36,867 nucleotides of DNA, from the NCBI GenBank assembly GCA_018667855.1, contig JABIRL010000158.1, positions 1 to 36,867 of the forward strand. The letters are read 5' to 3'. Position 1 is the first letter of the stretch. Each line of letters opens with the position of its first letter. The translations under genes and the position numbers were made by a program. Below the pieces are notes generated by a model. The model saw nothing but the letters and a program-made list of their open reading frames with translations. It searched no databases and was not told the origin of the DNA. The DNA comes from Rhodospirillaceae bacterium. Lineage in GTDB: Bacteria > Pseudomonadota > Alphaproteobacteria > GCA-2731375. Shown here piece after piece: positions 4,387-7,862 of this stretch.

Positions 4387-4512
4387 ATCGGTTCCCAAGC
4401 CCTTTCCCGCTCATCAGTTAAGCCGAGGCCATTTTAGCTCGACCCGGCATTTGCAGCATCATAGCCTTTATAGACCTCCGGGAATCGGAACAAGAAAAGG
4501 AAAGTGACGAGA

Positions 4513-6507
4513 ATGCCCCATCACATAAGCGAAGAGCATCTTTTCACCTTCGCCGTCATCGCCGACACCCATGTCACCGAGGAGGAAGCTTCAGCTATCG
4601 GCGGATACGATGTGGACACCGTGAAGCTGGGCGCGGCGCGATCAGCCTATGTGGTTCGCGAGCTCAATCGTCTGGCGCCCGATTTCGTTGTTCATCTCGG
4701 CGACATCACGCACCCCGAACCGGGCACGCCAGCCTATGAAGATTCGGCGGAACGCTTCCACTCGGTGTACGAAGCGCTCGAATGCCCCCTGTATCTGGTG
4801 GCCGGAAATCACGATATCGGCGAAAAAGCCTATGGTGGTGAACCCCTGCCGCCTCAGCAAACGCAGCTCACTGTCAACGATGACATGATCGCTGAATATG
4901 AGCGGCATTTTCAGGCCCAGTATTATTCCTTCGAACACCAGGACTGCCTGTTCGTGATCATAAACGGCATGATCGTCAACTCCGGCCTGGACTGTGAGGC
5001 GCAACAGCGTAAATGGCTGGAAGCTCTGCTAGCGGAAAACCAGGGCCGGCGCGTCTTCATGTTCTCGCATTACCCAGCCTATCTGTCTCGCCCGGATGAG
5101 CCCGGCCACTATGACGCCACGGACGAGCCGGGTCGGTCATGGCTGCTGGGGATATTGGAGCGCCACAAGGTCGAAGCCTTTTACGCCGGGCATGTCCATA
5201 ACTTCTTTTTCAACCGCCATGGCGCGACCAGTTGTTACGTGCTGCCGTCGGTCTGTTTCCTGCGCCATGACTACCACGAGCTGTTTCGCATCGCGCCGGG
5301 CATGAAACAGGGGCGGCACGACGGCGCCAAGCTTGGCTATGCCGTTGTCCAGGTGCATGACGAGGGGCATCTTAGTCACATCATCCGCACCCATGGTCGG
5401 ACCGATGACCCGGCCGGGGAGGTCGAACATGCTCTGCCGCTGGTTCACGGTCTGGCATCGAGGGGCGGCGGTGTCGGCCTCGATCTGCGTCAACCCTGGT
5501 GCGACAGTGCCAACATACCCACCCCCTGGGGGCTGGATGTCTTTAGACGCAAGCGGGTCCGCAACGACTATCCGCTGTTAGCCCTGTGGGAGATGGGGGT
5601 TCGAAATCTGCGGGTGCCGCTCGACGATCTCGCTGATGCGGAGACGCGCGGCCGCATGGCCGAACTGGCGGCGCTCGGCCACCGCTTCACCGCCTATTCC
5701 TACGGATTGCCCAAGGGCGCGGCGCGGCAGGCGCTGTCCGATCATGGCCACATATTGAGCGCCTGGGAAGTCATCGCGCCGACCACCAGTGCGCCCGGTT
5801 TACTCGCTGACATTGCCGCGCTGAAGGGCGGGACGGCGGTCCTATTCAACGCTTACCGGGCGGATGTGAAGACGTTCAGCGGCAGCCATGGTTTGGGCGC
5901 CGACGAGCGCGGCACGGTCGAGGCGCTGCTTGCCCTCGACGGCGCGAAAGCGGCCATCGACGGCTTGGTCTTTGGCATCGGTTGGCGGGAAGCACCGGTG
6001 CCGGCCATGATCGCGGCCCGGAACAGCGTCGCCGGGTTGGGAGTCATGGCGGCGGTCCATGTGCAGTTCGCCCACCGCAAGCCCCTTGACCAGGATGAAA
6101 CCGCGCGCCACGACGACAACCGTATCGCCGAGGCCGTGCTCGGCGCCCTGGCCCACGATGATATGGCGGTATACCTTGATAATTTCACCGGTATCGATCG
6201 GGGCTATTATTTCAGTGGCGGCCTGGTTGATGGGCTTTACAACCCACTTTCCGGCGCCCACATCGTTCGCCAACTACATGCCGCATTGCCGGATGGCTGC
6301 CAAATCGGTGCGATGAATAAAAATGGTAACGACCGGTCTATTGAGTTGCGGGAACCCGATGGCGCCTTGCTTTTGCCTGCGACCGATCCCGACCCGGCCA
6401 CGCTGCAATCCGCGCCATCGCGCGCAAAGACGCGCTGGATCGATCTGGCCAGCGGAAATACGGCGCCAGAGGGACTCATAGGTCCCACCCTGGTAATTCT
6501 GAACTAG
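4513..6507 (+). CDS. Two-domain calcineurin-like metallophosphoesterase
   Basis: A 664-residue protein. Residues about 10-300 form a calcineurin-like phosphoesterase with all metal-binding motifs: D18-x-H20, G-D64, G-N99-H100-D101, S185-H186 and G226-H227-x-H229. It should hydrolyse a phosphoester with two metal ions; the substrate is unknown. No signal peptide is seen, so it is probably cytosolic. Residues about 320-664 form a second region that I do not recognise. Its alternating helices and strands (for example L-D-N-F-T-G-I-D-R-G-Y-Y-F-S-G-G) could be a barrel fold, but this is a guess. ATG 4513 or the in-frame GTG at 4504 could be the start; both lie after AAAAGGA. No close operon partner. 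Confidence 0.8.
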   Translation: MPHHISEEHLFTFAVIADTHVTEEEASAIGGYDVDTVKLGAARSAYVVRELNRLAPDFVVHLGDITHPEPGTPAYEDSAERFHSVYEALECPLYLVAGNHDIGEKAYGGEPLPPQQTQLTVNDDMIAEYERHFQAQYYSFEHQDCLFVIINGMIVNSGLDCEAQQRKWLEALLAENQGRRVFMFSHYPAYLSRPDEPGHYDATDEPGRSWLLGILERHKVEAFYAGHVHNFFFNRHGATSCYVLPSVCFLRHDYHELFRIAPGMKQGRHDGAKLGYAVVQVHDEGHLSHIIRTHGRTDDPAGEVEHALPLVHGLASRGGGVGLDLRQPWCDSANIPTPWGLDVFRRKRVRNDYPLLALWEMGVRNLRVPLDDLADAETRGRMAELAALGHRFTAYSYGLPKGAARQALSDHGHILSAWEVIAPTTSAPGLLADIAALKGGTAVLFNAYRADVKTFSGSHGLGADERGTVEALLALDGAKAAIDGLVFGIGWREAPVPAMIAARNSVAGLGVMAAVHVQFAHRKPLDQDETARHDDNRIAEAVLGALAHDDMAVYLDNFTGIDRGYYFSGGLVDGLYNPLSGAHIVRQLHAALPDGCQIGAMNKNGNDRSIELREPDGALLLPATDPDPATLQSAPSRAKTRWIDLASGNTAPEGLIGPTLVILN

Positions 6508-6640: not shown

Positions 6641-7168
6641 ATGATATCGCCACCGCAACCGACCATCACGTCGCAATCGGGCAGCCGGGTTTTCGCCTGC
6701 TTTCCCGCCGCCGTTCTGACCATTGTGCTGAATGACCAGGATCAGGTTCTGCTGCTGTGTCATCCCGACCGGCCCGGCAGATGGGAAGTGGTCAACGGCG
6801 CGCTGGAGGCCGGCGAAACCGTCTGGGACGGCGCCCTGCGGGAATGCCATGAGGAACTGGGTGGTGAAGTGAAAATTCGCCCCATCACCGCCCTGCATGC
6901 CATGACCGTCGCCTATGACGATGCGGTGCCCAACATGATCTCGTTGATTTTTGTCGCCGCCTACGAGGGCGGCGCGGTGCGGCCCGGCGACGACATGGCG
7001 GGCAGCGCCCAGCAATGGGCCGATATTGACGATGTGGTGGCGGGCAAGGTCGACGTCATCGTCCCCCGTAGCCAGCCCTGGCTGTTCAGCCGCGCCCGGG
7101 AGGTCTATCAACTTTGGCAAGCCGACCGGGTAGACTTGCAGATCCCGTTATCCGCCCCCCATAAATGA
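6641..7168 (+). CDS. Nudix hydrolase
   Basis: A 175-residue protein with a complete Nudix box at residues 53-75: G53, E59, R67-E68, E71-E72 and G74 follow the pattern G-x5-E-x7-R-E-U-x-E-E-x-G-U. These residues bind the metal ions for hydrolysis of a nucleoside diphosphate linked to another group. The substrate cannot be predicted. ATG 6641 has no clear ribosome site upstream; a very short leader is possible. It ends 73 nt before the selenoprotein candidate on the same strand, so the two may be co-transcribed. Confidence 0.9.
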   Translation: MISPPQPTITSQSGSRVFACFPAAVLTIVLNDQDQVLLLCHPDRPGRWEVVNGALEAGETVWDGALRECHEELGGEVKIRPITALHAMTVAYDDAVPNMISLIFVAAYEGGAVRPGDDMAGSAQQWADIDDVVAGKVDVIVPRSQPWLFSRAREVYQLWQADRVDLQIPLSAPHK

Positions 7169-7241
7169 AGACGACTTTTTCTTCACATCGCCGCGCCAAT
7201 AGGCGACAGTATCGGGCAAGTGACCAATGGAAGGAAACGAA

Positions 7242-7862
7242 ATGGCTGAACCGATAATCCTGGAAGTCTTCACCGACTACGTTTGACCGTGGTGTTATCT
7301 CAGTACCGGGCGTATTGAAAAACTGAAGCAGAATTATGACATCGAGATGAAGTGGATACATTTTCCCCTGCATCCCGAAACGCCCCAGGAAGGGCAAAGC
7401 CTGGAACAGCTGTTCGCCGGGCGCGGCATGGACATGGACGCCATGTATGCCCGCATGAAGGGCCTAATGGATGTGGAGGGGCTGCCCTATGGCCATCGCA
7501 CCCATACCTACAACAGCCGTCTGGCCCAGGAACTGGGCAAATGGGCCGATACCCAGCCGGGCGGCGAGGCCATCCATGATGCCCTGTATCGGGCTTATTT
7601 CGTCGATGCGGTGAACGTGGGCGATATCGATACCTTGCTGAAGATCGCGGGCGATGTGGGCCTGGATGTGGCGGCGGCGCGGGCAATGCTTGAATCCCGC
7701 AGCTTCTCTGATGCTGTGGACGAAGATTGGGCGCTATCACGGCAATACGGCGTCACCGGCGTACCCACGTTCGTTGCCGGTCGTCAGGGTGTGGTCGGCG
7801 CGCAACCGTATGAGGCGTTGGAGCAGTTGCTGCAGGAAGCCGGCGCCGCGCCGAAGTCTTAG
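7242..7862 (+). CDS. DsbA/FrnE-like thiol oxidoreductase, probable selenoprotein (TGA codon 15 = Sec)
   Basis: A 206-residue thioredoxin-fold protein of the DsbA family, FrnE-like group. AAGGAA lies 5 nt before ATG 7242, a very good ribosome site. The frame reads E-V-F-T-D-Y-V, then TGA (7284-7286, codon 15), then P-W-C-Y-L, and continues without a break to TAG 7862. Relatives have C-P-W-C here, so the TGA sits exactly at the first redox cysteine and reads best as selenocysteine, giving U15-P-W-C18. The cis-proline loop G-V-T-G-V-P175-T is intact, and no other disruption is present. A SECIS-like hairpin follows the TGA. Standard callers would start at ATG 7347 and lose the active site. The protein has no signal peptide and is probably cytosolic. 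The alternative is a pseudogene or sequencing error at one base. Confidence 0.85.
7284..7286 (+). other. In-frame TGA, predicted selenocysteine codon
   Basis: Codon 15 of the gene at 7242-7862. It is flanked by codons for D-Y-V and P-W-C, the conserved surroundings of the first cysteine of the redox motif. TGA differs by one base from both cysteine codons. Confidence 0.82.
7300..7318 (+). promoter_or_regulatory. Predicted bacterial SECIS element (core hairpin)
   Basis: TCAGTAC (7300-7306) pairs with GTATTGA (7312-7318) in seven consecutive pairs including one G-U. The loop is CGGGC (7307-7311) with a G at its second position. The loop starts 20 nt after the TGA. Bacterial SECIS elements lie in the coding region just after UGA with an apical loop about 16-37 nt downstream and a G among the first loop bases; in E. 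coli fdhF the distance is about 18 nt. This is where SelB would bind. The hairpin encodes residues L20-E26 of the protein. Confidence 0.75.

Follow-up and report, generated by a model that had tools for sequence, protein, structure and literature searches.

DsbA-like selenoproteins with a UxxC active site have been in print since 2005. They appear in the table of the Sargasso Sea survey, as a DsbA-like selenoprotein of COG2761 with 9 sequences (PMC1088965), in that of the GOS survey, as 'DsbA 1' with 63 sequences (PMC2398784), and in review tables of 2022 and 2026 (PMC9312934, PMC13188914). The Sargasso table describes their Cys homologues as widespread while the GOS table gives 704, broadly counted, and a bacterial SECIS was predicted for the Sargasso member. 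Among Cys-type proteins, FrnE of D. radiodurans is described as a cytoplasmic protein with a CP(W/F)C site that acts as a disulfide isomerase and reductase in vitro. Its mutant is sensitive to cadmium and diamide, and regeneration through a C-terminal CXXXXC has been proposed (PMC8945050).

The gene analysed here lies in a window of 36,867 nucleotides, which is the whole stretch of DNA under study. Its frame (Table 1) has a single interruption, the TGA at codon 15, before it ends at a TAG (7860-7862). The start codon, TGA and stop all lie where the earlier note had placed them, and the ribosome site and cis-proline loop (V174-P175) that it describes are present. The active site reads D-Y-V-U-P-W-C, with P16, W17 and C18 following codon 15. 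C18 is the sole Cys of the 206-aa protein, and U or C occurs at residues 15 and 18 only. The read-through frame is no accident of sequence: when the TGA is translated as an amino acid, the Pfam DSBA profile (PF01323) matches residues 7-198 (E 3.8e-37), compared to E 1.4e-23 for the truncated ORF. This ORF is the one obtained without read-through, as had been foreseen for a normal gene caller, and its start removes 35 residues including the whole active site. Standard annotation is therefore expected to mis-call the gene, with the start at 7347, the active site gone and no NCBIfam model at its cut-off. The best NCBIfam selenoprotein model for the window protein, NF041057, scores 41.5 bits, short of its curated cut-off of 190; it is also the best model across 35 members of the group (best E 7.9e-12).

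Table 1 Features of the candidate selenoprotein gene (positions in the window)
Feature	Position	Strand	Evidence
Predicted Sec-containing FrnE-like DsbA CDS, 206 aa, via TGA read-through	7242..7862	+	Frame, DSBA match, conservation, fold
AAGGAA, probable ribosome-binding site, 5 nt 5' of ATG 7242	7231..7236	+	Sequence
TGA codon 15, predicted to encode the selenocysteine that opens the U-P-W-C redox motif	7284..7286	+	Conservation
TGT, codon 18, inferred resolving cysteine	7293..7295	+	Invariant in two alignments
SECIS-like hairpin, stem 7300-7306 / 7312-7318, loop CGGGC 7307-7311	7300..7318	+	Folding, covariation
V174-P175, predicted cis-proline loop (thioredoxin fold)	7761..7766	+	By homology
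Truncated ORF expected from a standard gene caller, ATG 7347, 171 aa	7347..7862	+	Frame without read-through

Like the DsbA-like protein form 1 as it is described in print, the window protein belongs to PF01323 and has a single Sec as the first residue of UxxC. Its group is possibly the same as this published form (representative NIP15863.1), the two being likened by description only. Since DsbA-like UxxC selenoproteins were already published, the window protein is an addition to a known kind, and the novelty attributed to a UPWC protein of DsbA type by the earlier note was overstated. The window group differs from the Sargasso and GOS families in that no close Cys orthologue was seen. The published accounts, as far as their tables and descriptions of DsbA-like selenoproteins go, make no mention of a Sec-only group. 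Among the papers listed in literature searches, judged by title and abstract opening, none concerns this orthologous group; absence in print is not claimed.

Of 15 order genomes, 13 have the gene. Each copy has one TGA, at the same codon, and is 72-85% identical to the window protein; one is split across two contigs (G007) and another begins at a contig end (G008). A search of the 15 genomes found no orthologue in G011 and G014, which are of the same family and have selA and tRNA-Sec despite this. In a sample of 385 genomes of the class, the 17 matches at E <= 1e-30 correspond to 16 orthologues and one TGA-free relative at 32% identity. All 16 orthologues, our own included, have one TGA, and the other 15 show 62-84% identity. 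In the phylum sample (398 genomes searched, E <= 1e-25), the orthologue was found in none of the 397 other genomes, the 33 matches listed all being from the own genome or the same class, and 12 other genomes carry TGA-free relatives (30-37% identity). A scan of named genomes identified 423 relatives. The best 80 of these 423 (66-86% identity) all carry UxxC and all are titled metagenome-assembled. One of the two scan patterns used Cys codons (DYVCPWC) and the scan was thus not tilted to TGA. Some named records and sampled genomes are the same organisms, and sequence tests were therefore run on distinct rows. In the plasmid collection 95 records matched, all below 60% identity, with a best value of 33.2% among the 25 matches listed.

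The full-length relatives seen are either Sec proteins with at least 62% identity or TGA-free proteins with at most 37%. Partial TGA-free matches reach 42% identity, spanning only residues about 127-200 with the active site outside. At the aligned site, CPWC is found in 26 of the 29 distant TGA-free relatives extracted, one of these 26 being from the source genome, and the other three have no such motif. The expectations that other homologues would share the TGA codon and that Cys homologues would carry CPWC were thus borne out, and the order, class and 80 named copies are free of further in-frame stops.

Coding constraint was estimated from 11 rows. pS is 0.559 before the TGA, 0.128 across the hairpin and 0.511 after, and the corresponding pN values are 0.104, 0.035 and 0.122. 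The resulting pN/pS ratios, 0.19 before the TGA and 0.24 after, indicate protein-level selection on both sides, and a conserved in-frame UGA with coding selection on either side is a pattern expected of a bacterial selenoprotein. As TGA is one base from TGC or TGT and the source genome is a draft (5.3 Mb, 371 contigs, 94.2% complete), the codon might be a sequencing error, or else a young nonsense mutation in a pseudogene. With the same TGA in 13 order, 16 class and 80 named orthologues (some of them from the same organisms) and both ratios low, this has a negligible probability and is refuted by the independent conserved copies.

The same data bear on the position of the start. The working protein could begin at 7347, where an ATG opens the 171-aa ORF, the upstream region then being a leader and the TGA a true stop. 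However, codons preceding the TGA evolve as protein (see the pS and pN values above), and the residues that they encode align with DSBA. An AlphaFold2 model (35-row alignment, Cys standing for Sec; mean pLDDT 94.5) predicts a strand at residues 5-11 and a helix at 16-31 in this part. Moreover, the truncated form would be without both redox residues. Coding selection before the TGA, the DSBA alignment and the predicted fold lead us to reject this start as very improbable.

The SECIS-like hairpin has a stem of 7 bp which begins 13 nt 3' of the TGA. In 61 distinct sequences, 99.3% of stem cells are paired, 16 stem cells carry a change in both partners and covariation scores 0.123; for each of these values, none of 500 shuffles was as high. 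Slid versions of the stem are 23-44% paired, with scores of at most 0.083. The pair-count and pair-type measures are unremarkable (65 and 486 of 500 shuffles as high, respectively), and the minimum-energy fold of the single sequence is no stabler than shuffles (z +1.02). Five of the seven stem pairs are invariant and one pair is broken in three rows. The changes are concentrated in two column pairs: 21-31 is UA in 48 sequences and CG in 13, and 19-33 is AU in 55, UA in 3 and unpaired AC in 3. At the codon level, AGC at codon 21 occurs with GTT at codon 25 (13/13 rows) and TGT with ATA (3/3). In each coupling, one arm of the stem changes silently while the other alters the encoded amino acid. 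Codon usage is frozen in this region, with CTC in 89/89 Leu rows at codon 20, CGT in 89/89 Arg rows at codon 24 and ACC in 86 of 90 Thr rows at codon 22, and regains ordinary variety a few codons further on. The loop is CGTGC in 32 of the 61 rows, CGGGC in 25 and different in 4. Judged by sequence comparison, the hairpin, with its short distance 3' of the UGA and its G-containing loop, has the layout of a SECIS, and the compensatory changes and frozen codons are as expected of a bacterial one.

The source genome encodes the tRNA-Sec, SelB and SelD that a bacterial selenoprotein calls for. The tRNA-Sec scores 68.2 bits with anticodon tca (L001, contig C343), the next two matches of the model being tRNA-Ser. 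SelB scores 361 bits, above the cut-off. Contig C34 ends precisely where the SelB match opens, at position 28 of the model, and the gene is truncated. SelD (L020:1501-2430, contig C289) contains an in-frame TGA (GGUGCK) and is itself a selenoprotein. A second SelD-type gene, a 755-aa ORF (L021:1390-3657, contig C49), combines an N-terminal pyridine nucleotide-disulphide oxidoreductase domain (Pfam, 11-317) with SelD sequence at its C-terminus (AIRS domains, 451-745). The genome search for selA, selB, selC and selD suggested by the earlier note therefore succeeded for the last three, while a profile search of the source draft did not find SelA. Every other order genome (14 of 15) has SelA, and in the four where both genes were placed (G002, G003, G006 and G014) a gap of 42-45 nt separates the selA match from the selB match downstream. 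With selB truncated by a contig end and selA directly before it in those four relatives, a lost contig end is probably a better explanation for the missing SelA than real absence. The tRNA-Sec gene lies apart from selAB, about 55 kb from selA in contig C1 of G002; other Alphaproteobacteria, by contrast, are reported to have selABC clusters and a nested selC (PMC8124441, PMC1794560). The formate dehydrogenase alpha model TIGR01553 reaches at best 201.9 bits in the source genome against a cut-off of 814.2.

Across the class sample, selB was identified in 55 of 385 genomes at E <= 1e-60, 54 of them above the cut-off. It is present in 15 of the 16 genomes with the orthologue compared to 40 of the 369 without (Fisher p 4.9e-13, relatedness ignored; 9.7e-10 after removal of the four orthologue genomes in the genus of the source genome, relatedness again ignored). 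The remaining orthologue genome in which selB was not found, G025, is a draft, 77% complete. tRNA-Sec was detected in 21 of the 24 other orthologue genomes searched and not in G005, G012 and G025, all drafts.

TGA is reassigned in some bacteria, and on this precedent a near-cognate or suppressor tRNA could insert tryptophan or some other standard residue at the codon. Such decoding does not account for a gene that tracks selB across genomes, for a hairpin with compensatory changes 3' of the TGA or for Cys as the aligned residue in 26 of the 29 TGA-free relatives extracted, and a TGA (7166-7168), the predicted terminator, closes the frame of the adjoining Nudix ORF. This alternative was rejected and its probability is negligible. 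The window gene is very probably a genuine selenoprotein gene. That the TGA codes for selenocysteine, as first proposed from the frame, is supported by the Sec machinery (SelA apart), the conserved TGA and the covarying hairpin, all of them genomic evidence. SelB would bring Sec-tRNA-Sec to the UGA and hold the hairpin during its decoding as Sec.

Among solved folds, the best match to the predicted model is D. radiodurans FrnE (PDB 5cnw, 5co3; E 1.9e-15, TM 0.88), followed by S. coelicolor SCO1869, and a profile search agrees (FrnE, E 1.9e-32). We take COG2761 to be the FrnE group. The D. radiodurans protein, at 35-36% identity in the structural alignment, has Cys where the window protein has Sec, and its longer C-terminus carries CXXXXC while the window protein has only U15 and C18. 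The window protein thus has the DSBA thioredoxin-fold domain and the CxxC-type site of the FrnE subfamily and does not have its C-terminal CXXXXC. Some FrnE proteins are described without this motif (PMC8945050), so the missing pair does not exclude membership. A tree built from 89 Sec proteins and 26 Cys proteins parts the two groups by one branch (support 100/99); its Cys branches are long, its bootstrap did not reach convergence and the three motif-less TGA-free relatives were left out. The same genome contains a Cys-type FrnE-like paralogue (L009, contig C2) with a DSBA domain and CPWC at the same place. It is 30% identical to the window protein, has no TGA and falls on the opposite side of the Sec/Cys branch.

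The gene product is almost certainly a selenoenzyme of the FrnE subfamily (DsbA family), with a U15-P-W-C18 site, and probably a cytosolic thiol-disulfide oxidoreductase. By analogy with the family, Sec15 would attack the substrate disulfide, and a selenenylsulfide would close between Sec15 and Cys18, the resolving residue. Thioredoxin or glutathione would then reduce it, an external reduction suggested by the absence of any other Cys and of a C-terminal CXXXXC. The reaction may run in the direction of a reductase or isomerase rather than an oxidase. By analogy with FrnE, the likeliest role would be protection from oxidative or metal stress.

The unusual part is that, from the sequences compared, the orthologous group looks Sec-only. 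If so, it is a natural experiment on why Sec cannot give way to Cys in some enzymes. We suggest tentatively, and at somewhat less than even probability, a FrnE branch locked to Sec across bacterial phyla, in which Sec is not replaced by Cys. Its range would include Alpha-, Beta- and Gammaproteobacteria, to which the titles of metagenome-assembled records add Rokuibacteriota, Deltaproteobacteria and Acidobacteria. In such a branch the reaction would be one that Cys cannot adequately support, and the enzyme would be lost, not converted, once the Sec machinery goes. A survey of 2006 gives one selenoprotein family for alphaproteobacterial lineages (PMC1794560), and the gene supplies these lineages with another conserved selenoprotein.

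The ORFs on either side of the gene were clustered across the 80 named loci, many flanks ending at contig ends. Each neighbour family occurs in 9 of the 80 loci at most, so gene context gives no substrate. Elsewhere in the window, a 667-aa protein (4504-6507, + strand) carries a metallophosphatase domain at residues 15-233, with about 380 aa past residue 285 that match no Pfam profile. A tRNA-Leu gene (cag) is located at 135-221 on the - strand.
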